From Elusimicrobia bacterium RIFOXYA2_FULL_47_53 (GTDB lineage Bacteria; Elusimicrobiota; Endomicrobiia; Endomicrobiales; XYA2-FULL-47-53), in the NCBI GenBank assembly GCA_001800315.1, contig MGVE01000006.1, positions 234,021 through 298,020 on the forward strand: a DNA stretch of 64,000 nt. The letters are read 5' to 3'. The notes under the pieces are model-generated. The model did not search any database. It saw nothing but the letters and a program-made list of their open reading frames with translations, and was not told where the DNA came from. The stretch's first letter is position 1, and every line of letters begins with the position of its first letter. Position numbers and translations under genes: made by a program. Positions 1-31,562 of this stretch are shown here, in pieces.

Positions 1-3000
1 TTAACAAAGTGCCAGTTCAAATAGGAATGAGACGAAACCTTGAAAAACAGAGAGGACACAAATTCAGGCAGGTTTTTTAACATTGAAATTATTGAAACCG
101 CCCCAAACGCGCGCCGGCCGGTTTTTTGCGTTTTTATTTCGCCGTCACCCGATTTCTTTTCCGGCTTAACCGCAGGCTCATCGGGTTCTTTAAGAGCTTC
201 AATGGTTGACGGTTTGGAAAAATAATCAAATAGAAACATATTCCAAATGGTTGAAAACACGAAGGCATGCAGGAATATCAGGACATTGGCCGAGTCAAAA
301 TACGGGAAATAGGTGCGCATTGCGTCGTCTAAGCTCCAGCCCACTGTCATCGCGGCAGTCCAGTACAAAGTGTTATAGCCCATGAGCCTGGCGTAGCGGT
401 TCCACAAATTTGACACCACATTCTTAACACCGGGTTTGTCGTATTCCCCTAAAAACAGCCCTCTTATGGATATTTTATGAATAGCGAGCTCCATGGTAAG
501 CACCCTTAAACCTGTGTTCACAAGCGGTGAGACAAAACCCACATCAAATATCACCCTCGCGAATATCCCCATCACCTCTCCCTGTCCTGCCAGAGCGGGA
601 GTAAAGTATCCGGCCATAAAGAATCCATAAAGGAAAATATACCGGTAATAGCTTGTAAGAAGGGATTTAAACGACCAGCGAATAATTTCTCTGAAGCCGC
701 CCGGGTCAGTTACTCCCCGTTTCATAAGATTAATCTTATTTGACAGTCCCTTGCCCTGGCTCAGCCTGGCCCTTGACATCCAGGAAGCTACAAACGCGGT
801 GGCAAACGCTATCGCGACTTTATAGATATGTCCGGCCGAACCGACTCCGTCGTAACCAAGATTTGAAAGCGCAAAATGAATAAACGGTATCGCGGCTGTC
901 GCGGGAATAACGAAGGCGAAATTGGTTCTTACTATTTTTGGGATAGCCCTTATCGCAGCGTATTTATTTTCCAGGGCGGCGGCGCGCTCGCTGAGCCATT
1001 TACCTGCCAAGATACTGCTGTTTAGCAACCAGCCTCCCGCTACCAATACCGCGAAGGGCGCCAAAAGGCCCGGGAAAGCGGGCAGGATATAGAAAATTGA
1101 AATACCTATATATAGAACTGTCAGCCAAAGGCCGAATTTATTTATTCCTCTTATTATCGCGGGCTTATATTCCGAAATACCGAAGGCCGCGCGCAGTGCT
1201 TTGCCGAAAACAAACCTGCCGATCGCGTAGGTGCTCGTCAAGGTGAGCGGTGTGTTGATTTTCTTTGGTAAAACTATGGTGAAAGCCGCTCCCTTATCTT
1301 TCACGCTATGAATGCTAATTGTCCCGTTCATACTTTCAACCATGTCTTTGCAAATAGCAAGGCCGTAACCGGAGAGCCCTCCCTCTTTACTTGTTTCTCC
1401 AGGATTAAACAACCTGTTATCTTTCAGAAGCTCTTCCGGAATGCCTGGCCCGTTATCAGAAAATACAATAATCCAATTATCATCGTCTTCTGAAACGCGA
1501 ATTTCACGCAGAGGTTTCCAGTCAGTTTGTGCGTGTTTCATTAAAAGATAAATTTCATAATCATAGGAAGCTTCCTGTGAATTTTTAAGCAGATTTTTAA
1601 ATATTCGCGATAATGCGCCTTTATTGCCCAATATTTCAGTCTTATCTCCTCCCCAATTAAACTCAAGTAAAGCATCCTCACGAGTTATTGAGCGGAGTTG
1701 TTGTTCAAACACCTCATTATTTATGGTTGTGAGTTCTCTGCTGTCCTCTATAATATTCTGCAATTCATCAACCATGTTCAGCAGATCATTGTCCTTTTCT
1801 GTTAGCCGCGCTTTAATATTATCCAGCTCCAGAACAAGTTCGCGCGCAAGAGAGTCTAACTGCTCCGAGATAATTCTTTCGTTACTCTGTTTGTTCTTAT
1901 CCTTAGCCTCCCAGATCTTATTTACATATGCGGCGCTCAATTCTTGAAACCGCCGCGGGTTTATTTTATTTTCACCGCGATTACTAACTTCTATGATTTT
2001 TTTCTTGAACTCCGGAATAAGAGCCAAATCATGTATCCGCATAGTGTGTTTAACAATATTTTTTCTTGTATCCAGTTCCAGGGCAGTCAATTTTGTTTCT
2101 AATTCATCTTTTTCAAACACGGGCTGTACATTGGCCTTGGATGAAACGGTTTTTTTGCTGTATATCGCGGGAAGCAATTCTAACAGCTGAGGTTCGCCTC
2201 TTTCTATTTCTTCAAGGATCGCGTACGCAACAACCTCGTCGGCATATCTTAAAAGGCTGTGTATCTCGCCGGCGTATCTTCTGTCGTTTCTTTCAACCCC
2301 CAATACTTCCCGCTGGTCAATTATGCGGATGTGTCCGTCATTAGAAATATGGTATTGAATGTCTCTGTCAAAATCCAGGCCCTTTGCATTTAACCGTGCC
2401 CTGGCTTCTTTGAGTTCCAGGTAAGTCTGCAAGGTAATGTTGTTCCTGCCGGCAAAAGGCATTTCACCCGGGACTATATCCATAACAATGTTAAGTTTGT
2501 CCTCGCTGTCGCGGTAAACGCCGTACACTTTCGGGCCTATGCCCAGCCGGTCCGCCGTGACCGCGCCCTTGTAATCCTGAAGAAATTCTTTTTCCAGTTT
2601 TCTGGGCGAATCTTTTCGCGTGAGCTTGCGCAGAGCAACCGGCGTACCGTCGTCAAGCCAGCCAACCCTGACCACGGCGTTACCGCCGCTGAAATGCGCG
2701 CTGCCAAGAATTATCTCTTTTCCCGGGAAATTGACATTTTCCAATAGCGGTAAGTTATCCGCGGTGAAATTCGTATCGCCGGTTTCCCGGGCCGCTCTTA
2801 ATCCGCCGACGGTTGAATAACCGACAGGGAGATCCTCGGAGCGGATAGCCATGGTGGGCAGATAAACAAAGTTATCGCGCCTTTTTCTTTCTATATAATT
2901 GAGTATACCCTCATCTTTTACGACCTTTTCCGTACTTTCAGCGGCTCTTTTTAAAAGGTGTTCTATCGCGGGCGGCATCTTTGTCCTGTACTCGCCAGTC

Positions 3001-6000
3001 TCCGCGACAGGAACAGAGGCGCCGTCGGCCACGCCTTCTTTCTGCCACAGCTCCAGCTCCCAGTCATAAGTTGAAGCGAATTTGCCGGCCATTACTTTTT
3101 CAAAAGCATTGTTTATTTCATCATTTAACAAATCAAGCTTGACGCCTCTTTCGCCGTTTCTCCATTGGCTGGTTATTTTTTCCCATACTGACCTGAAATT
3201 TTTGTTGAGCTTTTTTTCACTGATATCGGGGCCTATAACAATTACCTTTGAAGAGGCTGTCACAACATCTATGAATTTTTCAATTTTATTGTTTACGCTC
3301 AACGAAGCTTTCTGGAGATAGACATCAACCGGCGTGAGATAATCAACCCCTGTAATATCGCCCTTTTTAAGCGTTATGGAGCGCATTTTTGGTTTCTCTG
3401 CGCCGGGATAAGCCCACCAGAATTTCAGCACCGCGCTCCCGTCGGTATTTACAGAAATCGGAAGAATATCATTTTGTTTGACGCCTAAGGCCTTGAGTTC
3501 CAGGACTATAAGCTCCTCCATATATGAGTCAACAAGCTGTATGGGCCAGTAGCCGAGGTGATTTCTGTATTCATAGTAAGCGGCAGGATGGCTTTCATAA
3601 ACATCAAGCTCAATATCATCCCATTTCTCTATCAGAGCCTGCAGGCCATTTCCGTCATACCCCAACTTGTCAATAAATTCCATTTCCGTGGCATCCGCAA
3701 TGAACAGCGGGCTTGCTATATCCGGACCGGAGGCCGCGTATCTTAAAGAAATTCCTAAGCTCTTCGGATTTATTATTTCCTTGTTTTGCAGGTAATACTC
3801 CATTTGTTCCGGGCTTATAAGCCCGTTTTCAACAGCGGGTATTCTGTTGATAAAATCTTCATTTTCTGACATTTTGCCGCTGGAGGTTATTTCTTTTCCA
3901 AAAATCAGCGGCTTGCCGGCTTTGGTGCCGCTTCCAAATAATAAATTGTAAAGCGCGTGCGTTGAGGCGTTGGCAAGGTAGGCTATATAGGCGTTCTGCG
4001 TGAAGTGCCACGCGAGGTAGGTCGCTGTCCATATTGCGCCGGCTCCGGCAAGCCTCGGCCAGTCGGGTTTGCCCAGCAGGAAATTTATCAGTATCTGAAG
4101 TGTGTGCAAAACAATATCAGGCAGCCAGAAGGGGGCAAATTTCAGCTCTACCCACCGCTTCATTTGCGGTTCATTGGAAAGCGTTTCTTTGTATTGCGGA
4201 TTGCTCTTGCGGAAATTCTTGAAATACCATCTCCCTATTTTATAGGTGCTCGCATGCGTAAGCCGGGAACCATTTTCATCCGAACTAATTTCTTCGGTGC
4301 TGTGCACTTTCCCGGTAGATGAAACCCCGGCGTATAAACCAGATCTATCTGTATTCGGACTGCTGTGAACCGATTGTCTTGGCAAATCGGGCCATGGGAT
4401 GTCTTTAAATTCCGAGAATTCCGGGCCCGCCATAAACCTATTATTATCTGTTTTAATAATTCTGCCATCCTCTTCAAAAACCGCGAGGTTTTCTGACAGG
4501 GCGTTTACATCCGCCTCATAGCCAAATTTACCATTTACTATCTTTTGAATATCTGAAACGGTGAATGTTTTATCAATTAAATATAGACGCACCACTTCGC
4601 GAATCATGCCCCTGTAAATAATGCTCTTTAACTCATTCCCTCCCAAAGTGATTTTTTCGTCACTGATATATTTAAGGGTTTTTGTGAAATCGCCCAGCAA
4701 TCTTTCCCCAAACTTCATTGAAACGGCAGAGGTTATGGTTGCGCTTTTTCTTTCATTTTCACTCAGTTCAACCATCTCTTGTAGATAGTCAAGAAGGATT
4801 CGCGTCTGCTCGTCAATCAATTGCCTTATAAGCAGCTGTTCTTCGCTCTTTATTTCTCCGAATTTGGCTGAGCGGAAAATAATCTTCAATTCCCAGAAGA
4901 ACATCGCCTGGCTTTCTTCCCATTGCTTAATTAAATTTATGATTTCCGAAATGTCTTTGTCTTTGAAACTATATTCGTATGCGAGCCGATTGGGATCATA
5001 AGTATCTTTATCTATTAATCCCAAATCAATCAACTGCGCGGTGAACCTGCTTTGCGTCATCGGGATATACATTTTAAGCGGATAGGTTATGCGGCTATCC
5101 ATGCCCGTTTTTTTAAGAAATGATATATTTTCCTTAACCTCTTCTGTCGTAACCAATGGGTCTACCATTATAAATCCCGGCACAACATAAATACCCATGG
5201 ATTCTATTCGCGCAATTGCTTCTTCATTCTCTGCAACTGTGGCCGCCTTGCCGTAACGCTTTAGTTGTGCGGGCGACCCTGATTCAATGCCGATGAACAA
5301 CACCCTTAACCCGGCCGCGTAAAGTTTTTTATACGCGTTCAATCGCTTTTCATTTTCAAAATCCGAGTCATTCTGCCTGTACACATTGCGAACGCTTGCC
5401 GAGGTGCCGAAAATTAATCCCGGGTGAATGTTGCCTTTCTTTTTTTCATCAATGATTCTGTCGGCCAAATCAAGCACCCTTTCCACGCCGCCGGCAAATA
5501 GATCTTCATCAACAAAATTTATATTCCGCACCCCTAATTTGCTCGCTTCAATAATGTCCTCAATAATTGAATTGATGGGACGGCCTTTCCATCCTCCTTC
5601 CAAAAACGGTTTTCTGTCGCATATAGCGCAATTAAACGGGCACCCGCGGCTGGTTTCCATGTATACAACACCGCCTGAATTCACAACTGCCGGGAGTATA
5701 TCGGGCAAGGGTATGCCAATATTCTCTATGGAGTTGCTGCTGCGCGGCCCATTCCGCCTGATTCCGTTTTCGTCAATGTATGAAACATTATGAATTGCTG
5801 ATTTGGGTATATTCCCCTTCGCAAACTTTACGGTATCTATCATTGCTTCTTCGCCCATCCCAACGCAAACCATGACCTCGGGAAACTTTTCAAGAATGAA
5901 GTCAACATTATAAGAAGCGACAATGTTTCCAGCGATAACAATTGGCCTTTCGCTTTTTGGCAGAGAGTTGACATAAGCCATTACGGCGAATAATTCCCGC

Positions 6001-18000: not shown

Positions 18001-21000
18001 GCTTTTGCCACCGGCCCCTCAGCCACCTCATCAAACGCCAGTATTTCGCTGGGCGTAAGTTCCGGCTTTAACTGCCCGTCCGGTTTAACCCCCTGGACGC
18101 TGTCTATTACTTCGTGACTATTGAAGTCGTAAGGGAAAATGTCTTCCCTGATGATTTTTAACGCCTTTTCGGCCTCAGGCATTTCGGCGAGTTTTTCAAA
18201 AAGCGCTTCGTTGGCTCGGTATTTAAGGTAAATGTATTCCGCGGCTCGTTTTGTCATGCCAGACGAGGGCTTTTCGCTGAGAAGAAACATTCTGTCGTAA
18301 AGTTCTCCGCGCACCTTGTCCCACAGGCCTTTTGGTGGCCTGACTATATTGTTTTCTTTTTTAAGTTTGAGATATGAAAACAGATGGCCGACCTCGGATG
18401 GAAGAAAAAGCAGGTTATGAGTCATACGCACTTTATGCAAAGATAAGCCGCTTTCAAAAAACGCGCTTAACCAGTTATTGTCTGCCTCAAACCGTGATCT
18501 TGCCTGCTGATCATAAAAATGATGTTTCTCTACTAAATCGGGGTGCAGCATTTTAAGCATATAAGAAGGGATTTTGCTCAGCAGCCTGGCGTAAACGAGG
18601 CCCTGCAGGAAATTCTTAAAGTTATGCAGGTCAATGTGCTGGTCATCAAAGATATCCACTATCTTCGCGACTTCGTATTCGGCGCTTGTGGAATACGCCC
18701 CCGCCCTTATCTCGGGGATTGAGGCGTAAATCAATACGATCTGATAGGGCACATCGGCCCACGAGATATCCGCCGCGGGAGGAGGGATATTTCTTTTCAT
18801 CATCTCCTCTCTTATAAGAGGAGCGAGATAGCCCTCTGTCCATTTTTTAAACGCATCTTCTTCCGAGCATGTGAAAAGAGCGGAAAGCATATACGCGTTC
18901 GTTTTAGGAGTAAAACCGAACTTTTGCGCGGCGGTTTTGTAAATTACAAGAAGAGACTGGGAAATAGACGCCACCCGGGCTCTCTTTTCTCCGACAAATA
19001 ATTTGTTCGTATCAATCCATCTTTTCATCCCGAGAACAAGGTATTTCTCATTTTCAGTCAGCTTCATTGACTCAAAAAACCATCTGAGGGTAAGGTCATA
19101 TTTATTGCCCTGGATAAGCGGTTTGAGTCCGAGCGGCAAATTTCTTTTTCTTATCTCCGAGCGAATCTCCCGGATTCTGAGAGCCAGCTTGTCCCCGGAG
19201 AACCCCGCGGCAGACGGAATTGAATATTTAATATCTGAAAGCAATATGTCAATTGACGGTTTTTTCCGGGCAGACTCTTTTAAGAAATTTCTAAAAACCC
19301 GCCCGTCGGCCTCCGCCAATATTTTCAGCATCGCATTAAGCTTAATGAATTTGCCGGCATCCTCTTTCCGAAGCATTTCCGCTACTGCGGGATAGGCCTC
19401 GGCAAGAATAGCCATTTCTGCTGAAGGCAATGCCCCAATAGTATCTGACATCTCGCGCAGATACTCTGATGTTTCCTCAAAGGTCAAGCCGTTGCCGCGC
19501 ATAATGGAGGCGCTCTTTGATGCCGCGTTGAGGAATATTTCCCTTTCCTGCGCTAATTCTTCTCCTGCGCCGAGCGGAGAAATATCAAGTATTTCGGCCC
19601 AGCCAGCCACATCCTCGCCGTTAAAATGTCCCTCTGTTAAATCAAAAATTTCGTTTAAATATATTTTTGTGTCGGGAGAATTGGCTTTAATCATCTCGGA
19701 CAGCTTATTAACGAATTCCGCTTTTGAAAGATTCCAATTATTTTCCGCCTCTTTAAGCGTTTCACCTGGATCAAGCTTCTTTTTATATTCAATAAGCGAG
19801 TTCTCGGCCTGCGGGTTTAAAAGAAGGTACGCGTTTCTAAGGGCGGTGGCGATAGCGCCGGATGCTATCCCGAGAGAAAAAGCTGAAAGCAATAATACCG
19901 GTGCTGATTCCTGCGGAGCCGAGAAAAAAACGCTCCAGCTAAAGCCGGCGGCCGCCACAAGCAGCTCAAAGAAGCGGCTGCGGAAATACCGGTCGTACCT
20001 GCGTTTCCTGTACTGTTCCGGATTTCGGAACCGTTCAATAAAATCCGAGATGCCGAACAGTTTTGTTTCTTGATCGCGGGGTTGAATTCTAAATTCGTTT
20101 CGCGCGGAGGATTTTTTCGCGTCTTCGCTGCCGCGCGCCCTTGCGGCATCCCCGGTGAAAGGAGCCGCGCTGTCAATAAGTTCTCTCAGGCTGACCTCGT
20201 CGCCCCTGTCGCCTATAATTTCCGCGTATTTTATAAGCAGCATGTCAATCTTGACGCTGTTTCTTCTTTTCCACTCCTCGCTGCCGCCTATCTCTTCAAT
20301 GACCTTCTTTGTGTCCACTTCTCTGTAATCATAGCGGTTCTTTATTAAAAACATAAACAAGCCGCTTTCAATCTCATCGGCATGCTCATCATCTGTCGCG
20401 GTTAAAAATGCTTTTAAATATTGTTCGGCCGCCTCGCGGTATTTCCGCGTATTCTGATAGACGATGGCCAGCGACTCGTAAGCATAGGCTATTTTAGCGT
20501 GGCCGGTCCGGAGCGCGGCCTTCAGCAAAAACAGGGCGCCGTCATAATTTTTCTGCCTCATGTAGCTTTCCGAGAGCCCCAGCCGCGCGTCAAAATTTTC
20601 CGGATATAACCTTAGTGTTTTTTCAAACAGCGGAATCGCTTTTTCGGGTTGTCCGGATTCATTATAGAAATCCCCGGCCGCGTTTATGTACATTGGATCG
20701 GTGGGAACCAGTTCAAGGCATTTCAGCAGGCTTTGCTCCGCCTTATCGTTTCTTCCCAATTCTATATTGCAGAGGCCTTCCCAATAATAATTGTCGGGGT
20801 CATCAGGTCCCAGCTTAATGGACTCTTTAATATAGGCAAGCGCCGCCTCGTGGTCGCCGAGGTCGTAATATTCGGCCGCTATTCTTGTCATAAGCGATGA
20901 TGCGGCATGCTTCTCGTCAAAAACATTCAGGTAAGAATATCCGGCGAGCGGTTTTCTGCTTAAGTAGCGCTCAAGAGGGGTATCGGGATCCCTGTTAAAG

Positions 21001-24000: not shown

Positions 24001-26228
24001 TTTCGTTTTTCCCGTTCACTGATAATAGCCTGCGCGAAATCCGGGAAGCGCGCCAAAATCTCCTTCTCAATGCCGTCAATCTTCTCTTGCGCGCTTAATG
24101 CCGGATCGGATACAATTTCGTAAATTAAACCATTGCCGGTTAAAATGTTGTTTGCCGCGGCAAACTCAAACAGCTCCCTTGCTATGGAATAGATATCGCC
24201 AAAAACTATTCTTGAAATAAATCCGGCGGCATCAAGCAGTTCGTAAACCGCCGCCTTGGCCTCCGCCACGAGCCCCGCGGGCTGGCTTACAATCTCTCCG
24301 GTTATTTCGCCGCTCCCCAACTTTATGACTGTGCCGTTCTCAAAAGTTAATTCTCCGCGGCTTGTGTTATAGCTTGCTTTTTCTCCGAAGGCCTCTTCTA
24401 TTTCGCGTATCAGTCTGGTTTTCTCGGATATACCAGCGCCTTTTATTTTATTATCCAGGGCTTTTATCGTAAGCTCAAACAATTTAGGCGCGGAACTCTG
24501 CGAGGCGAGAGCCAGGGCCAGTTGTTCCGCCGGAGACGCCGCCGCGTTTATCATGTCTCCGCCGGCTTTCGCGCTCCGCTCCAGGGAATGAGTTTCACCG
24601 TTAATCTCAAGGGCCTGCCGCATGGCAAGCCGCGCGTAAACTCTGGCCGCGGTTTTATCTTCTTTTGTGGCGCCCGGCGTGATATTTATGTACGAAATAT
24701 TTCTTTCTCTGAGCAGTTCATTGAGCCCCCGGGTATGGAAACCTCCGGTAATAACGGCAATGATTTTTGTATTTTTCAATTTGTTTACGAGTTCGGCTTC
24801 CCGGTATAAAGCTCCCCGCGCCGCGCCGCTCGCCGCGGCCTGCGTTTTCCGCTCGCCGCGGAGTTCTTCAATATTATTCAGGAAACGGGTATTTCTGCCT
24901 TCGTTTGTTCCGTAGAATTCATTGAGCAGGGCAAAATCCTTTTCCAGCGCTCCGATTTTGTCGTCGTAAGCGTATTTCAGCCATACGGTTTTAAATTTTG
25001 CGAACCTGGACTTGAAGTATTCATAGTCCTGCGCGGTAATGCTGTTTAAAAGAAATCCTTTGAAATACGGGAAGAAATCGGCGAGGAAAGCGACCTCAAG
25101 CCCGCTTCTGTCGCCGGCGAGCGCCACCCTTATATCTTCCGTCAGCCTTCTTTCTTCCTCAATAATTTTTAAGGGATTTATCGCGCGGTTATTCTCTATA
25201 TAACGGAAAAACCCGCAAAGTTCCGGGAAGCGCGACTCAACCCAATCCTGATAAGGCGCCCCGGCGGAGGCGCCGGGTTTTTTAGCCAGCTGAGCCAGGT
25301 AAACATACAGTTCGTCCACCTTTGAAAAATTGCCGGTTTTCTCAAGCAACGAGTTATACAGATTAAAGCTGATCCTTGATTTTAATTCCTGGATGAACTG
25401 CTGCATCTGGCCCGAAACTTTTCCGTAATTTAACTTTTTGCCCTGCCTTATCAGCGAGGCGTAAGCCGCCAGGCCGGGGAATTCTTCGGTTTTGATGGAA
25501 AGCGGGCTTTGGTAATCCCCGGGGTTTTCGTTTATTCTATCGGCATACGCAAAAAGCCTTTTATAGTATTCGGCGGCCTCTATTTTTCCCTTCTTATAGT
25601 CCTCTATCAGCCGGTTAAATTTCCGGCTTTCCGGGCTCATGTATTTGGCCTGCATGAAACCAAGCTCTTTTCCCAGCGCCCCGGCGGCTTTTTCAAAATG
25701 CTCCTTCTTTTCAAGTATGAGCCCCAGCCTGGCGATATTCTGCCTGTGGATCTCTTTGTCTTCAATGCCCGTCAGAATATCGGGTTTATAGGCGGTTATG
25801 GAGAAATACTCTCCGCCGGTCAGGCTTCCGTTTTCCAGCAGGTTTTCCACGAGCTCTTTTTTTATCGCTCCGTCTTTTATTCCCGCTATGCGGGCGGTGC
25901 TGATCCTGCCGTAGCCGCCCTCCACATACACATTGGCGAGTCCGAATTTTCCGTCCAGCTCGGACAATATTCTTGAGATATTTCTCTGCACCTCGGCATG
26001 GCAGTGCAGGTCCTGAATATTTACAACCGTCAGGCTGTCGGCGCCGGCGTCTTCGGGAGCCCAGAATTCGGTTATCCTGCCCGCCGTGTGCGCGATAATG
26101 ATGTCTTCCAGCGCGCGAGCCTGCGGCCCCGCGCCGCCGCTGATTTGTACGGCGGCCTGGATGGGCTCGGCCATCACGAAGGAGAACAGAAAGCTTGATA
26201 ATGAGATGAGCGCTATGATTTTTTTCAT
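1..26228 (-). CDS. Giant multidomain secreted/membrane protein, at least 8,742 residues, C-terminus outside window
   Basis: Reading the minus strand from the ATG at 26228, one frame stays open to base 3 with no stop, so at least 8,742 codons are visible and the gene continues past the left edge. An in-frame TAA lies at 26247-26249 and this is the first ATG after it. No Shine-Dalgarno sequence precedes it. The first ~25 residues form a signal peptide (MKKIIALIS..., ending near VMAEPIQA). In order (approximate residues): TraB/TIKI-like 57-523; kinase-like 828-1060; membrane pair 1197-1263; degenerate HAD-like 1285-1420; transglutaminase-like 1677-1730; TPRs 1775-1948; membrane pair 2082-2137; unknown helical 2138-2900; membrane pair 2917-2967; cassette B2 3120-3230; six beta repeats 3270-3767; helical 3780-4040; sigma-70-like 4057-4233; cassette B1 4264-4366; YvcK-like 4392-4776; HAD 4973-5050; cassette A1 5243-5338; amidoligase-like 5720-5870; HEAT-like 6080-6460; cassette A2 6530-6654; B12/radical SAM 6673-7080; cassette A3 7324-7442; unknown 7450-7790; degenerate kinase 7794-7993; histidine-kinase ATPase 8057-8323; multi-membrane end 8325-8660. 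The overall function is not known to me. Confidence 0.93.
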   Translation of the reverse strand, partial: MKKIIALISLSSFLFSFVMAEPIQAAVQISGGAGPQARALEDIIIAHTAGRITEFWAPEDAGADSLTVVNIQDLHCHAEVQRNISRILSELDGKFGLANVYVEGGYGRISTARIAGIKDGAIKKELVENLLENGSLTGGEYFSITAYKPDILTGIEDKEIHRQNIARLGLILEKKEHFEKAAGALGKELGFMQAKYMSPESRKFNRLIEDYKKGKIEAAEYYKRLFAYADRINENPGDYQSPLSIKTEEFPGLAAYASLIRQGKKLNYGKVSGQMQQFIQELKSRISFNLYNSLLEKTGNFSKVDELYVYLAQLAKKPGASAGAPYQDWVESRFPELCGFFRYIENNRAINPLKIIEEERRLTEDIRVALAGDRSGLEVAFLADFFPYFKGFLLNSITAQDYEYFKSRFAKFKTVWLKYAYDDKIGALEKDFALLNEFYGTNEGRNTRFLNNIEELRGERKTQAAASGAARGALYREAELVNKLKNTKIIAVITGGFHTRGLNELLRERNISYINITPGATKEDKTAARVYARLAMRQALEINGETHSLERSAKAGGDMINAAASPAEQLALALASQSSAPKLFELTIKALDNKIKGAGISEKTRLIREIEEAFGEKASYNTSRGELTFENGTVIKLGSGEITGEIVSQPAGLVAEAKAAVYELLDAAGFISRIVFGDIYSIARELFEFAAANNILTGNGLIYEIVSDPALSAQEKIDGIEKEILARFPDFAQAIISEREKRNINIHEKAGQEEWLKVLLLADLFGGIIAGFGAYGQEPAANETEQAAAVHSYSAASFGESDRLINELMTTLTAGYSEYIGDFSGGILSAGKVKPGIVRETNIVELIPRDVFHEGLIKDEDGIYWIVKKQDIFARDRNAPDRKIKDTPSHEMLAWLISQGRSNMAEIRFLSPQELKGVDFINKDELYRYYLTRLVVPSNIDASKLAVRDRARAFNANFVTNILLRKWDQHYGNIAFAGDLPVTIDNDEVLPFYLFDNRGGGINRFYSLFLYHSVFSTAKTVKPLSSDWSEDYRALVALMKQTDYATVRAYFLLMFEKYGLGAGLTQAESLNETYLRESIENFKSLDSDTLQRLCEQAGYEGRELENAVNFLLENHARLGQDVNELYYMLSGKDAELDLLDSGGPAQKYKDREKEKYANILGRKRPAGKPKLETAALDAAKPADGAGKAGKPSGITLSAHLAPVFFFAASLVGISPELGALMPGGPQSVVSNLFPLLEFMISPAAITLAAAITAAAAIFQSIGFRAKGGAISGPEAGEFSLRLEKAINERAVPLLSADIESITDDNGLLGKTQIKSIKELLRSGGNLVLHSSSGKEWFYKKIIGPLAEDLNRNDEIHLLGRLYFALNSGREIFAPSQQSFELINQSQEPIDKDGILGRLTAHLNGRGMAVSVVSHIGDFRDTKITPLGGYLPENTVPVSVGKIASGEFEKETGPGRLFTVQPVRQKDTARIFSYAAARLYGKYQIDSTQAGSRGNNNLSWTFENRARIADSVSVGGPGFVWATQTPSPETGQTAKTFLVPLLSKNMTEFTAALPEGADAFTFFWSGAAETVSGRVPGRWDENLYRVHQLKNRQLMSELGRLNTANISETAALMKEFIGGRYGLETLLVLIDKFVTFAQYGPEAKNRYGKTFDAFQNYFISEAARKKLIQNLVPEQFVNILSEGDCTVIAYALWELLKSLPLPDAVKIVHIGVPQHVFLGLMAGEYILAFDFAMRKVGPIVLNMSFNRDPDTPLERYLSRKPLAGYSYLNVFDEKHAASSLMTRIAAEYYDLGDHEAALAYIKESIKLGPDDPDNYYWEGLCNIELGRNDKAEQSLLKCLELVPTDPMYINAAGDFYNESGQPEKAIPLFEKTLRLYPENFDARLGLSESYMRQKNYDGALFLLKAALRTGHAKIAYAYESLAIVYQNTRKYREAAEQYLKAFLTATDDEHADEIESGLFMFLIKNRYDYREVDTKKVIEEIGGSEEWKRRNSVKIDMLLIKYAEIIGDRGDEVSLRELIDSAAPFTGDAARARGSEDAKKSSARNEFRIQPRDQETKLFGISDFIERFRNPEQYRKRRYDRYFRSRFFELLVAAAGFSWSVFFSAPQESAPVLLLSAFSLGIASGAIATALRNAYLLLNPQAENSLIEYKKKLDPGETLKEAENNWNLSKAEFVNKLSEMIKANSPDTKIYLNEIFDLTEGHFNGEDVAGWAEILDISPLGAGEELAQEREIFLNAASKSASIMRGNGLTFEETSEYLREMSDTIGALPSAEMAILAEAYPAVAEMLRKEDAGKFIKLNAMLKILAEADGRVFRNFLKESARKKPSIDILLSDIKYSIPSAAGFSGDKLALRIREIRSEIRKRNLPLGLKPLIQGNKYDLTLRWFFESMKLTENEKYLVLGMKRWIDTNKLFVGEKRARVASISQSLLVIYKTAAQKFGFTPKTNAYMLSALFTCSEEDAFKKWTEGYLAPLIREEMMKRNIPPPAADISWADVPYQIVLIYASIPEIRAGAYSTSAEYEVAKIVDIFDDQHIDLHNFKNFLQGLVYARLLSKIPSYMLKMLHPDLVEKHHFYDQQARSRFEADNNWLSAFFESGLSLHKVRMTHNLLFLPSEVGHLFSYLKLKKENNIVRPPKGLWDKVRGELYDRMFLLSEKPSSGMTKRAAEYIYLKYRANEALFEKLAEMPEAEKALKIIREDIFPYDFNSHEVIDSVQGVKPDGQLKPELTPSEILAFDEVAEGPVAKAASDSWYAAERKKIEMKTASSGQEEQLNNEVAILLGVPVISLLDNPDSFFIPAPDLTLERGLGDSAHMYAERILCDAVIQLVVSMEEAGVDPRFQPLLVPKMLEYLVPRLEREEAELYGILKNIETVDKDLVSQWFEELVKEGRVRKAFGFNAAGLGEILSNNKGFAETEFVIRMFKNIVLVVMVTAFPWLYNHWLRVSTPLQLVAFFAGLMFLYWLPYLSESVGTAIADRLQKRESNKLDNKINTLLNLQDKMSGFQGMLDLASQSKYRIGLTELMLLGDEELRFRDTHRQMLEKGIRLLRDEILSMKEFLSSRLPAEQEFAEKYFSGNREMAFEFAKAVLTKNEFERLKWFVDANSSDPQKREIANIEEITRGELRDGETLTVPGTYSLARGLAGGAQLLFGQAPTFGIDHPVINRLIELVFAPLFVPDLFIHAARDDLSDSQISGLKAIAIATSAMLLVSFYLLNLPIFTTLVSAYFANAAAHNIYNLYALQGEALTAGAAEEEEGGLAVFETNNPSSERRIDRLTYEALKKLKKHTVKNLRIYSNGRVVIEGGKLRLGIAQNPDGLAEIDVVDGVVTELRVIVDGRVAESYPFTLVYDNSTGRLVKSFRDFISKGDVAQFTNHTVKKYRTNKDNAAVLGGYIARIGEEPFSEVEIDFKDGVAVALRSIKDGRVSEEKKLITIHDNQSGKIIMSAEKPALAKLRTLKNATVKNLHTDGNMLLNFMEKSYHVGREPDLEAEADIRDGVVVAARAYKNGRLDEEIKYKIIRSAETGQVTGSFEKLSPEELSKLNNHTITDFFVPENRVIQIGGKYICKTQKGGIYAELDVRKGVVTGVRTVENGKVTENKALALVYDETGRLVESVDELSRAARLGLEKCTIRNIKTGKDSLIWIDNAVISFANYPERDAELELVGGLPSEVKILSDGKVLASKKLALVYENATGRPVKWFEKLNPADLAKLSGHTIRQFITDKTGAISFGNERFLDLDLYPNAETEIYIENGRPVSVKYLKDKDGEPIFDVNGQPLEILLNNDIKNQMRKKSPAAQARRASYLQKLYDSAVELFIKGEDRAARRKFAYIVVRGRSLPSANLAEQNLAYKAQNYLERINGIIAAERTAGLSSEQDEVFNSQYRMAESLFAAGHFAEAMELFTHLKKTAKNDYPLTAVVSARISDSRASVKLESALSLMVQKRFGEATAQLKSFRQNRDPYLAEMSKRLMNECKGWELYETVNKLYKSGRYKDALKKAKALMKKADKTTNVYGAARHLAELSMARTAGTEATPGQIFIKPEIDRAVENEMFRILGLKNNADRKAEARKHIIGNYIWLVRNIVVNNYARYDLFSQDELISEGLLALYDLIDRYIADGLFGNISFEKYVQGELGAALDLAARELNRARFKEKSLDEKISSKDGEGPTKLERMTYDDSDYSLAVEENDEIRVLLGRLEAADRLVVEKVLTKGYTAQEAANSAGISEDEALAIIKRAYSILMEITAQDEDMLSRKEEEARLRDKKALADEEMLTAPQTRSTFRGFFGGVQLLFGQAPTFAIDHPVINRLIELVFAPLFVPDLFIHAARDDLSDRQAYGLQVIAVLASLTIFYSFYVFSLPLTATLVAAYLSLSIPHFIININESGQETLGWIKNAFTRESPLDAPAEVLIIGGGTGSGKIVELFKGRFKDGIRSITSYMDNGGSSKDIMDDIAFYWAAGKPARRPAREAVRAATIPHPGDVMSAITGGVAEEWKRWFLNARSFEARSFVQLLDSAKVQAAERFKGKVGETELEAFYNRLLPYFKNADNKWKGKIRISGRGHSVKNIIFLAALDAENACPSGWVVPSRYNRALERAMRITGSGSVSVPASPATYRDASFTALLSDGGLLTGQEDITAGYHPASYIEKVAFYDNAGNPVKMPANPKALAMIQNAKRIVIGPGSAFTSIAVNLMADGVARELKKARERGVQIIFIFNATKDMETLNHTPQTLITAIERSINDSLESDYSFGDIVTHVVFNKAPVDDPALADFISGEAREIEEIRSDASRRPLEAGKHALGTFEISREDREFIEAKSIIPVGERLAEISASLQPRDSDGSRAAQSYHYSLPRLAEIFSRIETGLLPSASTKRPRAEQTAGINGQDIVIREGGRSTIDISRAPVPTKKDAMKDYLRKTGFRASGGIYIGNQTDSINERDGILCGIDGLTVLAVDEDQHRVIPEAVAIGSGIDAAQKELQRIFNLPAGELPKFIALDIDDTILGKKDVIVNGQKKTVYENLYEDRYEMAVVLAALYNRGVRLAFFTDRNSATAMSSVLVPLQQMIDSQQGRAKNEIYLYVSGMTTKFISRRNRNGAWALKPDKAYSSRSRISGQNAREITDILGEVAEENGQIKLTGMLGRLYKIYAVKNSEGKYVLRDEFRDLYPSIALGVTPGGNVGYPVIEKRDQGADGSVSQIAISPLFSSPLIDARKDFRALTVSALAASLKGRDFALRKGLVKPQQEEETLDGKTTKSTLPALVTDEKVMDRWTELTIAPFWLPDIVFHTLQILINFLLGKPDWPRLAGAGAIWTATYLAWHFTQNAYIAYLANASTHALYNLLFGSGTKAGKPLTVGEDGFGIKPSETGDENILIPTEKNPLITSAGGLLVRPDAVDNRRIIPVTDAAIVALINGKDAAGIGRAVDLLDKLERAAIVLPAQKESKKTETEVVRASAEESARYGVSGETKLGTEFANKNGVLIASMGAEQLPLLMNRYLESVRMEDERGERGRGRVNDEYADYALQKGADSEYRLLWDMIFGKEFNAKKFSKRYNNLGGNSKRRMAVSARRAAGFVYSNMINGVLKGDDRAGEVRDATQKAFTRFIIRADASGADKLAKELRYQLLEILSARVNLAVAGYTDYLKALNTSDAEHPGARIAAFREIYFKDFVPEFRSLVRILGRSREWDEAAKSKLLEIAEKVIVFEECAGELRWISGVFEGEGDKRLKERYDLISPLLGETKFEPIPGITRKFGIELEMNADEEEDYLIDNGKQKSWNGLKIFFKKLGADYNASMHIHCDRGAYESEITAEQKRNLYTIALFLDGYLCAINTHNGEEIGGRQLILPYLFVVTENHMDAKVFYHHNIINFSRDHNTIESRFLMTPVRALPLNNRARAQYIRDALTVSDGLTRAIMEGGVTGLEDVVLPVFASGYEQRIDFSNLDRALKAVFGENRAAILSFKRLLLYSGRNAIPIDESDMRSRKTIENEVKSYYFLRGKLGVYKRLASGGRRHIWDGVVEEKHAKRVKEMLGRISAVGRQKDKVTDIIKGLNTETKLEISEGLEALNERAVNMDGKNKFYEAWEKGNLSLEKLPDMLNRKKTQQFYIALYKAIERIIITKDERGEDVAKLLDMLFDAVRKEEKDRSFGSAAIVTVGNVLSAKVERGEDISKWLNMLLNLAREEGRERNRNFAETAWNAIGDVISIKAERGEDVSEILKLLGNKDTNNATIILEARVGMLSCIRKIITRAGTRTEDVSEGINILRDLYEDKFLSNDLRGMAIVNIGVSMSERAELGKDVSEGVNILFNLPGDIMLPVELRATALRTIGNFAGGAVNKEIVNKALILMEDIFKDKTGPGLLRRTSIKVLGEVLSENAAQTGHVNRWLDVLARAVRDKDLAFIDSLVLIQNIGTAISAKGLEDKDIYEGLRVLEGLAREEKISEELRETAMDKIRDVVSLEATRNKDVSEGIKVLERLVTGEGVTGNIRWNAHGVLGRVELIQSEFAERKQNGQDSKSGGGGEIIIEILANIDPSTYKNTGGIKPAEPPRANEINNGTHLTLESTYKIGKWYFKNFRKSNPQYKEMLSNEPQMKRWVELKFAPFWLPDIVLHTLQILINFLLGKPDWPRLAGAGAIWTATYLAWHFTQNAYIAYLANASTHALYNLLFGSGTKAIKPLTVGEDSSDINMVDNESVKVTLSFFSKIRDTSKIDNPLSIAVLGGTLKNTFKDSVKVSMVHYLEEGDVQKIIERINQEKPKILGLSLGFGSLRELFAVMAYVNSLPKSERPIVIAGNIVASYNVDFILEKFPEVMVCVGMGEEAMIDTVKFAKGNIPKSAIHNVSYIDENGIRRNGPRSSNSIENIGIPLPDILPAVVNSGGVVYMETSRGCPFNCAICDRKPFLEGGWKGRPINSIIEDIIEASKLGVRNINFVDEDLFAGGVERVLDLADRIIDEKKKGNIHPGLIFGTSASVRNVYRQNDSDFENEKRLNAYKKLYAAGLRVLFIGIESGSPAQLKRYGKAATVAENEEAIARIESMGIYVVPGFIMVDPLVTTEEVKENISFLKKTGMDSRITYPLKMYIPMTQSRFTAQLIDLGLIDKDTYDPNRLAYEYSFKDKDISEIINLIKQWEESQAMFFWELKIIFRSAKFGEIKSEEQLLIRQLIDEQTRILLDYLQEMVELSENERKSATITSAVSMKFGERLLGDFTKTLKYISDEKITLGGNELKSIIYRGMIREVVRLYLIDKTFTVSDIQKIVNGKFGYEADVNALSENLAVFEEDGRIIKTDNNRFMAGPEFSEFKDIPWPDLPRQSVHSSPNTDRSGLYAGVSSTGKVHSTEEISSDENGSRLTHASTYKIGRWYFKNFRKSNPQYKETLSNEPQMKRWVELKFAPFWLPDIVLHTLQILINFLLGKPDWPRLAGAGAIWTATYLAWHFTQNAYIAYLANASTHALYNLLFGSGTKAGKPLIFGKEITSSGKMSENEDFINRIPAVENGLISPEQMEYYLQNKEIINPKSLGISLRYAASGPDIASPLFIADATEMEFIDKLGYDGNGLQALIEKWDDIELDVYESHPAAYYEYRNHLGYWPIQLVDSYMEELIVLELKALGVKQNDILPISVNTDGSAVLKFWWAYPGAEKPKMRSITLKKGDITGVDYLTPVDVYLQKASLSVNNKIEKFIDVVTASSKVIVIGPDISEKKLNKNFRSVWEKITSQWRNGERGVKLDLLNDEINNAFEKVMAGKFASTYDWELELWQKEGVADGASVPVAETGEYRTKMPPAIEHLLKRAAESTEKVVKDEGILNYIERKRRDNFVYLPTMAIRSEDLPVGYSTVGGLRAARETGDTNFTADNLPLLENVNFPGKEIILGSAHFSGGNAVVRVGWLDDGTPVALRKLTRKDSPRKLEKEFLQDYKGAVTADRLGIGPKVYGVYRDSEDKLNIVMDIVPGEMPFAGRNNITLQTYLELKEARARLNAKGLDFDRDIQYHISNDGHIRIIDQREVLGVERNDRRYAGEIHSLLRYADEVVAYAILEEIERGEPQLLELLPAIYSKKTVSSKANVQPVFEKDELETKLTALELDTRKNIVKHTMRIHDLALIPEFKKKIIEVSNRGENKINPRRFQELSAAYVNKIWEAKDKNKQSNERIISEQLDSLARELVLELDNIKARLTEKDNDLLNMVDELQNIIEDSRELTTINNEVFEQQLRSITREDALLEFNWGGDKTEILGNKGALSRIFKNLLKNSQEASYDYEIYLLMKHAQTDWKPLREIRVSEDDDNWIIVFSDNGPGIPEELLKDNRLFNPGETSKEGGLSGYGLAICKDMVESMNGTISIHSVKDKGAAFTIVLPKKINTPLTLTSTYAIGRFVFGKALRAAFGISEYKPAIIRGINKFGLWLTVLYIGISIFYILPAFPGLLAPFAVLVAGGWLLNSSILAGKWLSERAAALENKYAAIRAIPKIVRTNFAFVIPATAAIPFIHFALSNLGYDGVGSAGHIYKVAIAFATAFVASWMSRARLSQGKGLSNKINLMKRGVTDPGGFREIIRWSFKSLLTSYYRYIFLYGFFMAGYFTPALAGQGEVMGIFARVIFDVGFVSPLVNTGLRVLTMELAIHKISIRGLFLGEYDKPGVKNVVSNLWNRYARLMGYNTLYWTAAMTVGWSLDDAMRTYFPYFDSANVLIFLHAFVFSTIWNMFLFDYFSKPSTIEALKEPDEPAVKPEKKSGDGEIKTQKTGRRAFGAVSIISMLKNLPEFVSSLFFKVSSHSYLNWHFV
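240..1255 (-). other. Giant protein: multi-membrane cassette C
   Basis: Residues ~8325-8660. Opens with 'PLTLTSTYAIGRFVFGKALR', the same leader seen before cassettes A2 and A3, then several strongly hydrophobic stretches ('WLTVLYIGISIFYILPAF', 'KVAIAFATAFVASW', 'YYRYIFLYGFFMAGYF'). It is longer than cassettes A and B and shares only the leader with them. It likely anchors the preceding ATPase domain at the membrane. Confidence 0.6.
1260..2070 (-). other. Giant protein domain: histidine-kinase-type ATPase (HATPase_c)
   Basis: Residues ~8057-8323. A long helical stretch is followed by an N box 'FKNLLKNSQEAS' (~8211-8220), G1 box 'FSDNGPGIPE' (~8256), a G2 box 'GLSGYGLAICKDMVES' (~8283) and a final 'GAAFTIVLP'. 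All ATP-binding boxes of HATPase_c are present. A phosphoacceptor-like His is seen in 'IVKHTMRIHDL' (~8059) but it does not look like a standard H-E-x-R/N DHp box, so histidine autophosphorylation is uncertain. Confidence 0.85.
2260..2760 (-). other. Giant protein domain: degenerate protein-kinase-like fold
   Basis: Residues ~7824-7993. 'PVALRKLTR' (~7860) occupies the place of the VAIK lysine strand and 'DIQYHISNDGHIRIIDQRE' (~7954-7972) the place of the catalytic loop and DFG, but the HRD and DFG residues are only partly kept (IIDQ in place of DFG). This looks like a RIO/APH-type or pseudokinase fold. It lies just before the histidine-kinase-type ATPase. Confidence 0.45.
3905..4260 (-). repeat. 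Giant protein membrane cassette A, copy 3
   Basis: Encodes leader 'LTHASTYKIGRWYFKNF' then 'FAPFWLPDIVLHTLQILINF', 'LLGKPDWPRLAG', a second hydrophobic stretch and 'LYNLLFGSGTKAGKPL'. By eye about 97% identical in DNA to copy 2 over ~300 bp, with only a handful of mismatches, several at codon third positions. Such silent-site identity points to recent duplication or gene conversion. Confidence 0.9.
5000..6215 (-). other. Giant protein domain: B12-binding-like plus radical SAM
   Basis: Residues ~6673-7080. The first ~150 residues have the Rossmann-like pattern of B12-binding domains ahead of radical SAM enzymes ('KPKILGLSLGFGSL', 'IVIAGNIVA', 'VCVGMGEEA'). 'METSRGCPFNCAICDRK' then holds a complete CxxxCxxC cluster motif with cysteines at residues 6863, 6867 and 6870 (codons near 5642, 5630, 5621). 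'FIGIESGSP' follows as the usual beta-strand 6 motif. This is a full-length, apparently intact domain of the B12-radical SAM class. The unusual feature is its location inside a membrane/secreted giant. Confidence 0.85.
6268..6625 (-). repeat. Giant protein membrane cassette A, copy 2
   Basis: Leader 'LTLESTYKIGKWYFKNF' and the same two-membrane-segment body as copy 3, ending 'LLFGSGTKAIKPLTVGED'. It follows the HEAT-like repeats and precedes the B12/radical SAM domain. The stretch at 6371-6457 is identical or nearly so in all three A copies. Confidence 0.9.
6840..7990 (-). repeat. Giant protein domain: HEAT/ARM-like helical repeats
   Basis: About eight units of 41-44 residues carry the signature 'E-R-G-E-D-V-S-E-G-I-x-x-L' (e.g. 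'ERGEDVAKLLDML', 'ERGEDISKWLNML', 'ERGEDVSEIL', 'LGKDVSEGVNIL', 'TRNKDVSEGIKVL') followed by 'R-x-x-A-x-x-x-I-x-x-V'. This is the two-helix rhythm of HEAT/ARM solenoids. Likely a protein-binding scaffold between the amidoligase-like domain and cassette A2. Confidence 0.65.
8620..9060 (-). other. Giant protein domain: amidoligase (COOH-NH2 ligase)-like
   Basis: Residues ~5720-5870. 'KFGIELEM' (~5725) is the typical opening strand of amidoligase_2/GCS-type ligases (FGxExE), 'SMHIHCDRG' (~5770-5778) matches the HxHxD/S metal-binding strand, and 'HNTIESRF' (~5850) resembles the 'xIExR' motif. These enzymes form amide bonds, often on peptides or cell-wall components. The assignment rests on three motifs in the right order. 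Confidence 0.55.
10218..10495 (-). repeat. Giant protein membrane cassette A, copy 1
   Basis: Body matches copies 2 and 3 from 'APFWLPDIVFHTLQILI' to 'GSGTKAGKPLTVGED'. DNA identity is very high from about 10218 to 10460 and then stops abruptly, so the STY leader of copies 2 and 3 is missing. It separates the HAD domain from the amidoligase-like region. Confidence 0.9.
11070..11320 (-). other. Giant protein domain: HAD-type phosphatase core
   Basis: Residues ~4970-5050. 'FIALDIDDTILG' is a good HAD motif I (DxDxT) and 'RLAFFTDRNS' (~5020) supplies motif II. It lies between the YvcK-like domain and cassette A1. The domain extends further to about residue 5200 with less clear motifs III and IV. 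Substrate unknown. Confidence 0.6.
11900..13055 (-). other. Giant protein domain: YvcK/CofD-like (UPF0052) domain
   Basis: Residues ~4392-4776. 'VLIIGGGTGSGK' at the start, 'SYMDNGGSS' (~4424-4432), 'GDVMSAI' and 'VIGPGSAFTS' (~4660-4670) follow the order of the YvcK/CofD family, whose members bind UDP-sugars (YvcK) or transfer lactyl-phosphate (CofD). Relative to cytosolic YvcK the region between the two glycine motifs is expanded. The nucleotide-binding motifs appear intact. Confidence 0.72.
13130..13440 (-). repeat. Giant protein membrane cassette B, copy 1
   Basis: Encodes 'GGVQLLFGQAPTFAIDHPVI', 'RLIELVFAPLFVPDLFIHAA', 'RDDLSDRQAYGL' and a hydrophobic hairpin. About 13266-13415 is close to identical to 16678-16827 (roughly nine mismatches in 140 bp by eye). 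It separates the sigma-like and YvcK-like domains. Confidence 0.88.
13525..14065 (-). other. Giant protein domain: sigma-70-like regions 2 and 4
   Basis: Residues ~4057-4233. 'IWLVRNIVVNNYARYDL' followed by 'SQDELISEGLLALYDLIDRY' and 'FEKYVQGELGAALDLAARE' follows the order of sigma-70 region 2 (the '-DL-xx-G-x-x-GL-x-x-A-x-x-x-Y/F' core). After an acidic linker, 'LLGRLEAADRLVVEKVL' and 'YTAQEAANSAGISEDEALA' match region 4, including its helix-turn-helix. The aromatic -10-melting residues are poorly kept. Seen: the motif order. Inferred: a sigma-derived fold. Its position in the middle of a signal-peptide protein makes a transcription role puzzling. Confidence 0.6.
14905..16430 (-). repeat. 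Giant protein domain: six ~86-residue beta-type repeats
   Basis: Six copies of a unit carrying a signature like 'NHTVKNLRT' (KHTVKNLRI, NHTVKKYRT, NATVKNLHT, NHTITDFFV, KCTIRNIKT, GHTIRQFIT) recur about every 256 bp. Each is followed by short alternating hydrophobic strands with 'DGVV', 'GRVVE' and 'LVYDxxTGR' turns, which suggests a beta-rich fold such as a propeller or solenoid. Sequence identity between units is modest, so the expansion is old compared with the membrane cassettes. I do not recognise the family. Some resemblance to MORN- or YD-type short beta repeats is visible but weak. Confidence 0.7.
16540..16870 (-). repeat. Giant protein membrane cassette B, copy 2
   Basis: 'TLTVPGTYSLARGLAGGAQ' leader, then the same 'LLFGQAPTFGIDHPVINRL' body as copy 1 and two hydrophobic stretches. 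It precedes the six beta repeats. The cassette B body shares the 'APFW/APLFVPD' membrane-entry motif with cassette A, so A and B may be distant relatives. Confidence 0.88.
20380..21205 (-). other. Giant protein domain: transglutaminase-like triad followed by TPR repeats
   Basis: Residues ~1677-1948. 'GDCTVIAYALWELL' (Cys), 'PQHVFLGL' (His) and 'ILAFDFAM' (Asp) give the Cys-His-Asp order of transglutaminase/papain-like domains. Right after it come about five TPR units: recognisable 34-residue pieces such as 'EAALAYIKESIKLGPDDPDNYYWEG' are seen as A-x-x-x-x-x-A-L-x-x-x-P patterns. Such transglutaminase-plus-TPR pairs are common in bacterial envelope proteins. Cross-linking or amide hydrolysis is only a guess. 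Confidence 0.55.
21970..22380 (-). other. Giant protein domain: possible degenerate HAD-like segment
   Basis: Residues ~1285-1420. 'LLSADIESITDDNG' followed by 'IKELLRSGGNLVLHSSSG' has the shape of HAD motif I (DxD-G-T), then helix and 'G-x-V-x-I-x-T/S' motif II, but the second catalytic aspartate is not in its place. It follows a pair of hydrophobic segments (~1197-1263). It could equally be an unrelated alpha/beta fold. Confidence 0.28.
23050..23745 (-). other. Giant protein domain: PI3/4-kinase or HipA-type kinase-like fold
   Basis: Residues ~828-1060. 'YWIVKKQ' (~859-865) provides a candidate ATP-binding lysine. 'KWDQHYGNI' (~965-973) matches the D-x-H-x-x-N catalytic loop of HipA/PI3K/actin-fragmin-type kinases, and 'TIDNDE' (~980-985) sits where the metal-binding aspartate is expected. 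The key residues look intact, unlike the second kinase-like domain near residue 7860. The fold assignment is inferred from motif order and spacing. Confidence 0.5.
24660..26060 (-). other. Giant protein domain: TraB/TIKI/ChaN-like N-terminal domain
   Basis: Residues ~57-523. An early 'NIQDLHCHAEVQ' motif (~69-80), then 'VYVEGGYG' (~100-107), and a late 'ITGGFHTRG' (~493-501). The HxH, E-G-G and GGFH elements recall the TraB/TIKI/ChaN superfamily of putative metal-dependent hydrolases, which pair an N-terminal H-rich motif with a C-terminal GxxH. I assign this by motif pattern only; activity and substrate are unknown. It directly follows the signal peptide, so it should be the exported head of the protein. 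Confidence 0.45.
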
Positions 26229-26264
26229 GATTATTTTTTTAAAACATTATTCTGAAAAAAGAAA

Positions 26265-26289
26265 AACCCGGTTTTTATCAAACCGGGTT
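26265..26289 (-). terminator. Intrinsic terminator between small secreted protein and giant gene
   Basis: Nine-base stem AACCCGGTT/AACCGGGTT (26265-26273 and 26281-26289), read on the minus strand and followed by T-rich TTTTTCTTTTTT. It ends the 26289-26771 gene and overlaps its stop. The giant gene starts only about 36 bp further on, so it needs either read-through or a promoter packed into this space. Confidence 0.8.
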
Positions 26290-26771
26290 CATCTGCGGCT
26301 AAACGAAAAAAAAGCGTACGCGTCCGCGGGCAGATTACCCCTGCGGAGCATAACAAAATAGATTAGCAAAAACACAAATGCAAAACCGGGCGGGGCGTGA
26401 GCGCGCGGCGTGCCCGGCGCGAAACCTCGTAAAGCCGTAAAGGCGCCGGCATTTTCGCCGGAAGTCTCTTGCTGAATCAGTTTGAAATAGCTGGAAGACG
26501 GCGCGGCCAGAGAATATTTAGAGGCTTTGCCGAAATCGTTGGAGTTTGAGGCTTTGCCCGGCTGCCTGAACTCCGGGAAAAGAGGAGCCCCGGATTTTAT
26601 TAAGCCTTCAACCATCCTGCCAGGAAGGTCGGCTAAAGCCGAGAGCCTGTGAAGCCCGGACTCTATCTGAGGCTGGGCCGGCACACTAAAAACAGGGCGC
26701 GCCGCAAAAAACCCCGCAAGGCTGTTTAGCAGTATAAATATAGGTATTGATAACAGGAAAAACTTTCTCAA
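26289..26771 (-). CDS. Small secreted protein with C-terminal membrane segment
   Basis: 160 residues from a TTG start at 26771 (AGGG about eight bases upstream; no better ATG). An N-terminal signal sequence ('FFLLSIPIFILLNSLAGFFA') is followed by a Ser/Pro/Ala-rich low-complexity body and a C-terminal hydrophobic stretch ('FAFVFLLIYFVMLRR') with a basic tail. That layout resembles sortase/exosortase-type sorting tails, although no PEP or LPxTG motif is seen. It lies just upstream of the giant gene on the same strand, separated by a terminator. It may be exported with, or associated with, the giant, but this is only context. Family unknown. Confidence 0.6.
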   Translation of the reverse strand: MRKFFLLSIPIFILLNSLAGFFAARPVFSVPAQPQIESGLHRLSALADLPGRMVEGLIKSGAPLFPEFRQPGKASNSNDFGKASKYSLAAPSSSYFKLIQQETSGENAGAFTALRGFAPGTPRAHAPPGFAFVFLLIYFVMLRRGNLPADAYAFFSFSRR

Positions 26772-26928: not shown

Positions 26929-26969
26929 CGGTGTGCGGTAAAAATATTTATCAACAAGCGAGGAAAATT

Positions 26970-27107
26970 ATGACAAAACGCACTTATCAGCCAAACAGAA
27001 GGCGCAGAAAAAAGAAAATCGGATTCCTGGCCCGCATGTCCACAAAGGGCGGCAGAAATGTTTTGAGCCGTCGGCGCAAAAAGGGCCGCAAAACCCTTAG
27101 CGCATAA
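26970..27107 (+). CDS. rpmH: 50S ribosomal protein L34
   Basis: 45 residues starting [16 protein letters not shown] and ending GRKTLSA, the full canonical L34 sequence with its very basic composition. It binds 23S rRNA at the subunit surface. GAGG lies seven bases before the ATG and a consensus promoter sits upstream. It opens the plus-strand cluster rpmH-rnpA-yidD-yidC-jag-mnmE. In many bacteria rpmH is divergent from dnaA; here it points toward dnaA. Confidence 0.97.
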
Positions 27108-27130
27108 TAACCCTTGCGGGAAATGTTTCC

Positions 27131-27505: not shown

Positions 27506-27558
27506 ATCGGCCGCTCGGTTATTGGATCGGCGTTGTTCGCGGGCTATAATCTAAATAT

Positions 27559-27786
27559 ATGAAGCATCTCATTATTTTTCTGATTCGCGTATACCAGCAG
27601 TTCTCACGATATTCCCTGCCCAGATGCAGATTTCATCCCACTTGCTCCCAATACACGGCTGAGGCGGTGCAGGCTCACGGGACATTCGCGGGCCTGTGGC
27701 TCGGAATTAAAAGGGTGGCCAGGTGCCATCCGTTTAACCCCGGCGGCGTTGACCCTGTCCCAGGCAGAAAATCCGGCGTCAAATAG
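27559..27786 (+). CDS. yidD: Membrane protein insertion efficiency factor YidD
   Basis: 75 residues with the family signature '[21 protein letters not shown]' in two parts ([13 protein letters not shown]) and '[18 protein letters not shown]'. All conserved cysteines are present. YidD is a small membrane-associated amphipathic protein that aids YidC-mediated insertion. Position between rnpA and yidC is the usual one. Confidence 0.95.
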
Positions 27787-31546: not shown

Positions 31547-31562
31547 CCAAACGGAATAATTT

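Follow-up and report, generated by a model that had tools for sequence, protein, structure and literature searches.

A 9,296-codon gene from an uncultured Elusimicrobiota bacterium and its family of predicted exported, modular giant proteins

The stretch of DNA analysed here (64,000 nucleotides, hereafter the window) covers positions 234021-298020 of contig 6 (C6) in the 2.41 Mb, 20-contig genome of an uncultured Elusimicrobiota bacterium. Its left part is occupied by a single minus-strand reading frame (window 1..26228), which encodes residues 1-8742 of a giant protein. As an earlier, sequence-only reading had stated, the frame is open from the ATG at 26228 to the left edge: no stop is met as far as window base 3, that is over 8,742 codons. 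Following the contig leftward, a check which that reading had proposed, places the stop at position 232361, 554 codons beyond the window edge. The whole ORF comprises 9,296 codons or 27.9 kb (C6:232361-260248, of which C6:232361-234020 lies left of the window); the stop-to-stop span is C6:232361-260266, with the ATG seven codons in. Given the base composition, an open frame of this length is expected with a probability of about 10^-222. Codon-position GC keeps a coding signal along the whole gene, with a dip in GC from residues 5500 to 8500, and ortholog pairs give a dN/dS of about 0.13-0.24 (dS above 1), the body being similar to the head domain described below. We conclude that the gene is real, and that its product is a 9,296-residue protein with predicted export.

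The replication-origin gene set (rpmH, rnpA, yidD, yidC, jag, mnmE, ksgA, dnaA, dnaN, gyrB and gyrA, window 26931-40652) adjoins the giant and its partner gene. Transcription of the giant runs away from this set, and the gene that comes next after the giant is uvrD. Left of the window, a further ORF of 17,343 codons (C6:90173-142201, loci L006-L009) lies on the same strand. It starts with an N-terminal hydrophobic segment and has long divergent internal repeats but no head domain, and no Pfam match was obtained among its first 2,733 residues.

Directly upstream of the giant, on the same strand, lies the partner gene (26289..26771), encoding a small predicted-exported protein with a signal peptide and a predicted C-terminal membrane helix (...PPGFAFVFLLIYFVMLRRGNLP...), which belongs to no Pfam family. 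Similar small ORFs precede most members of the giant family for which enough upstream sequence is available, including all five in the same genome. A partner model trained without this genome matched 4 of its 2,147 ORFs, all 4 directly upstream of giants; the three matches in genome G005 are also upstream of giants, and upstream ORFs were likewise the only matches in G003 and G007. Between partner and giant, the leader scan detected a terminator-like hairpin with a T-run (26264..26290, minus strand). Of 39 members, 21 had such a hairpin; among 190 controls there were 5 (p = 1e-14). Because the next conserved genes past the partner (rpmH, rnpA, yidC and so on) are divergently oriented, the hairpin belongs to the partner-giant unit. 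A riboswitch in the leader was considered and dropped, as no Rfam match was obtained. Among 20 leaders from Omnitrophota, Goldiibacteriota and FCPU426, the partner was not found and one hairpin was seen. To judge from these sequences, a partner gene and a hairpin just upstream are the usual arrangement in Endomicrobia.

At its N-terminus, the giant carries a signal peptide (MKKIIALISLSSFLFSFVMAEPIQA, 26151..26228, minus strand), identified by hydropathy and matched by an equivalent leader in the paralogues, in line with the sequence-only reading; signal peptides with A at -1 recur among the members inspected. It is followed by the head domain (residues 38-525, 24654..26117, minus strand), which defines the family and resembles TIKI/ChaN/EreC proteins in its residue pattern and predicted structure. 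The invariant residues of the head are D73-x-H75, Q81, E103, R445 and G495/G496-x-H498. Nine key columns are invariant in an alignment of 45 sequences, and D-x-H, E(+28) and GxxH are kept in all 45. In the TIKI peptidase described in PMC6254334, two His and two Glu (2His/2Glu) form the catalytic set: E-x-H, a second Glu 28 positions further along, and a His later in the sequence. The spacing in the head is that of this 2His/2Glu set, with a change of E to D: D73-x-H75, E103 (28 on) and H498 within GGFH.

An AlphaFold2 model of the head (pLDDT 86) aligned best to ChaN (Z 7.4), EreC (6.7), HopBA1 (6.7) and BcR135 (6.3), which occupy ranks 1-5 and are members of one superfamily; the alignments cover about residues 40-524, with every Z below 8. 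Foldseek with the same model returned nothing significant (E of at least 0.08), and hhalign found no match between the head and 2-3 ChaN/Ere sequences, which are very shallow templates. For these three reasons, we grade membership of the head in the TIKI/ChaN/EreC superfamily as likely, not proven. Among the Pfam matches listed for head members, none passed the cut-off (DUF1722 appeared below it only), the ChaN (PF04187) and Erythro_esteras (PF05139) models had no match in the genome, and a PDB sequence search with the head profile gave no convincing match. Lipoprotein-like signal sequences (e.g. LLFTIAITSACG) were also noticed within the chain after the head in three members (L070, L090 and L092, about residues 730-820); they look like scars of captured exported genes.

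Behind the head, modules of unrelated types follow each other, all on the minus strand: TPR repeats (residues about 1775-1949, 20382..20906; Pfam and PDB), a tandem array of about five ~86-residue repeats with no Pfam match (residues 3244-3756, 14961..16499), a sigma-70-like module (13542..14060; NCBIfam E 1.3e-6, below the curated cut-off), a YvcK/CofD-like module (residues 4384-4880, 11589..13079; Pfam 2.7e-20, and PDB), a HAD-like module (residues 4970-5209, 10602..11321; DIDDT motif, Pfam only at E 0.09), a B12-binding/radical SAM module (5097..6170; CxxxCxxC intact) and a histidine-kinase-type HATPase module (1251..1778; Pfam 4.5e-19, DNGPGI intact). Of the "at least ten recognisable domains" claimed initially, the TPR, sigma-70-like, YvcK/CofD-like, radical SAM and HATPase modules were recovered by profile searches, whereas the HAD, amidoligase and kinase-like modules come down to motifs or weak matches. 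Pfam did not confirm the HipA-like and amidoligase (GIELEM) modules recognised by eye. GT5, HD, nucleotidyltransferase, protein-kinase, GGDEF, LysM and HEAT modules occur in the paralogues. Module order is not fixed: in the relative G001, behind the most similar head (48% identical), the HAD and YvcK modules stand in the opposite order, and a changed order of common modules was found in other pairs of relatives too. A recent origin of the modules from the genome's own genes was rejected: the stand-alone YvcK shows an identity of only about 30%, and in 16 genomes no relative of the sigma module was detectable.

Repeat comparison revealed two kinds of membrane cassette between the modules, again on the minus strand. 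Type A is present in two copies, 59% identical to each other (residues 3104-3233, 16530..16919; residues 4242-4369, 13122..13505). Type B, of ~100 residues with two predicted helices, is present in three (residues 5239-5341, 10206..10514; residues 6513-6667, 6228..6692; residues 7304-7457, 3858..4319). The claim that membrane segments separate unrelated folds within one exported chain is thereby borne out, the segments being predicted from hydropathy only. At the DNA level, the type B copies are 95-96% identical, share exact runs of up to 101 nt and all lie in one frame. In the 5,435-codon paralogue, three cassettes form a set of their own, and such paralogue-specific sets suggest lineage-specific duplication or gene conversion.

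The type B repeat is also the one realistic site for an assembly error, by which different giant genes would have been joined at the repeated cassette; a fall in GC from 0.50 to 0.44 after residue 5500 points in the same direction as the near-identity of the copies. Against this, the close relative G001 carries head, HAD and YvcK in one ORF and has cassette and C-terminal domain in a second ORF, both of them truncated at the end of a contig, and comparable intact giants exist in many independent assemblies. We regard such an artefact as highly improbable.

The two ends of the chain bear on the same question. The C-terminal domain (residues 8700-9296) begins in the window (1..131, minus strand) and ends outside it with ...SIKKVLLAA-stop. 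The last ~560 residues form a domain common to part of the family, found together with the head in one ORF in more than ten members. C-terminal domains vary among members, and only the final residues are general: an A[AG]-COOH end is present in 38 of 45 complete members (two sets pooled, 27/32 and 11/13), against 4 of 213 control ORFs (p = 9e-34). In the readable Omnitrophota giants, Ala comes last in 13 of 13, and (S/A)A in 11. Head and tail are both family-specific and bracket the frame, an arrangement that a chance fusion would hardly produce. A frameshift or chimeric join, which would have undone the initial claim, was not seen, and in many relatives the family-specific head and tail share one frame. 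A fold for the C-terminal domain was not retained: its lobes resembled a starch synthase at Z 8.0 and, at Z 9.0, a TIM-barrel enzyme, in a model (pLDDT 75) too weak for a function to be assigned.

The distribution of the family was established with the head. An initial profile, built from two sequences over their first ~540 residues, retrieved five head copies in the genome itself (ORFs of 9,302, 8,801, 5,435, 4,792 and 4,652 codons). Of 59 relatives, 36 had matches, as many as 26 in one genome. The named matches belong to Elusimicrobiota, mostly Endomicrobia; Omnitrophota and Goldiibacteriota each account for one, and FCPU426 for two. An origin of the DNA in Omnitrophota, assumed at first, was dropped on the basis of these names. 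With a 45-sequence profile, the head was detected in 60 of 247 sampled Elusimicrobiota genomes and in 105 of 193 sampled Omnitrophota genomes, where head-bearing ORFs reach 35,113, 23,964 and 16,199 codons. Some Omnitrophota genomes also contain stand-alone head ORFs of 518-550 codons; those examined at L165-L168 end in SDEE or similar, not A[AG]. No head copy was found in the single contig of G014, probably Endomicrobium proavitum, nor in many genomes of genus g7, whose members are probably endosymbionts. Two loci stand apart. At L042 (G002:C145:1-13338), one stop codon (7987-7989) stands between two long ORFs of the same frame, of which the second has NILSAA as its end; we report the locus as a broken or recoded giant. 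At L090, the ORF immediately upstream of the giant ends GILAAA, so that two giants may stand there in tandem. We conclude from these sequence comparisons that the giants form a large, apparently undescribed, multi-phylum family with a common head, a mostly common short tail, and shuffled enzyme modules between. This corrects the view of the ORF as a lone oddity outside standard operon logic: it is one of at least five paralogues in its own genome, and giant ORFs were already on record for Elusimicrobiota and Omnitrophota. The features that define the family, i.e. head, tail, partner gene and hairpin, had escaped the sequence-only reading.

Where would such a chain reside? Cysteine makes up 0.12-0.25% of the body in the genome's five giants, compared with 1.0% in cytosolic-like ORFs and 0.48% in signal-peptide-like ORFs. 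This low content and the signal peptides favour export, as far as composition can indicate it. The positive-inside rule gave no decision on topology, the charge around the hydrophobic hairpins being mixed overall: long loops stand 16:2 for cargo outside, and very short loops 7:27 for the opposite. Counting against export, the ATP-, SAM- and sugar-nucleotide-type modules keep intact motifs and would be expected in the cytoplasm. Intact cytosol-type catalytic motifs in an exported chain are the main contradiction of the export reading.

One way out of it is that the head stays outside while a later membrane segment returns the chain, the modules then forming a membrane-bound, cytoplasmic multi-enzyme. 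Modules that look catalytically intact and need cytosolic substrates would fit, as would several early helix pairs of the giant with basic flanks and neutral loops. The strong cysteine depletion of the body, the basic loops of the long-loop hairpins and the lack of a consistent single membrane segment behind the head all speak against such a scaffold, which we consider unlikely. Alternatively, the modules could be passed into another cell and do their work in the cytoplasm there, as an effector or a weapon of predation. This would account for export signals combined with cytosol-type enzymes; it agrees with the missing copies in G014 and many g7 genomes, and a predatory role has been proposed for Omnitrophota giants (PMC10066038). 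Pfam scans of the five paralogues, on the other hand, detected none of the secretion, repeat or autoprocessing domains known from systems of this kind (neither RTX or RHS repeats nor an autoprocessing domain), and the gene next downstream is UvrD, not an immunity-like gene. Delivery of this kind seems doubtful to us. The same scans were negative for NRPS/PKS adenylation, ketosynthase and carrier domains.

A third possibility is a polyprotein: the exported giant would be cut between modules into separate membrane-tethered enzymes, by the TIKI-like head or by a protease recognising the tail. The head retains the catalytic set of a superfamily that contains peptidases, cassettes recur between modules, and heads exist on their own in Omnitrophota; the -LxAA end, moreover, resembles tails read by PDZ-type C-terminal proteases. 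No conserved cleavage-like motif has been established between modules, and we consider a polyprotein rather unlikely.

Overall, we find it reasonably probable, with a good share of doubt, that the ORF is a single functional gene and encodes a member of a family of exported, modular giants. The giant would be exported and tethered to the envelope, and may be cut, displayed or delivered. The chain would leave the cytoplasm via the Sec system, and its head would fold outside as a TIKI-type hydrolase, possibly a peptidase. Cassettes would hold the chain in the envelope, the tail would serve as a sorting or processing signal, the partner could be an anchor or chaperone of the giant, and the hairpin would lower the giant relative to the partner. 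In this arrangement, the modules might act in the envelope or on cells nearby, interacting with other microbes or hosts. As a more specific and quite tentative proposal, Endomicrobia may possess a dedicated two-gene system. Its head, a peptidase of the TIKI type, would process or deploy the exported chain to which it belongs, with its interchangeable enzyme modules; the A[AG] tail would be the signal that is recognised, the small membrane protein the cognate partner, and the hairpin in the leader the element that sets the ratio of the two products. Head and tail would have an older origin and be common to these giants and those of Omnitrophota, some of which are among the longest ORFs of bacteria.

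Most giant proteins of bacteria have so far entered the record as outliers without annotation. With a common head that has a candidate catalytic site, a common tail and a partner gene of their own, they can be defined as a family that spans several phyla, and the 525-residue head, 160-residue partner and short tail offer small expressible handles on the function and export of chains of a megadalton and more. A literature search without preprints found none of the four shared features (head, tail, partner, hairpin) described in print, and priority is not established.

Giant ORFs have been reported in Omnitrophota (Seymour et al. 2023, PMC10066038), in a paper that mentions few annotated domains and suggests adhesion or predation. 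Huge proteins are reported in Elusimicrobiota (PMC11573180), and PMC12057145 is a further report on giant ORFs in these phyla. The giants of PMC10066038 and PMC11573180 resemble ours in having ORFs above 20 kb (27.9 kb here), predicted membrane helices, export and few annotated domains, and in coming from uncultured bacteria of the same broad group. As far as read, the two papers put the emphasis on adhesion domains and do not describe a head, tail, partner or hairpin in common; the modules found here are mostly enzymes and regulators. With the TIKI/ChaN/EreC superfamily, the head probably shares its predicted fold, and it has the same spacing of D-x-H, E(+28) and GxxH. It differs in its large helical insertion (about 157-444), in its first acidic residue, D instead of E, in matching neither the Pfam ChaN nor the erythromycin-esterase models, and in the thousands of residues attached to it. 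MARTX-type multi-effector proteins are likewise exported chains of great length in which several unrelated catalytic domains are combined, and in some of them one of these domains belongs to the TIKI superfamily, as the head probably does here. In the giant, neither RTX repeats nor a cysteine-protease domain were found; it has instead an N-terminal head, membrane cassettes and a partner gene.
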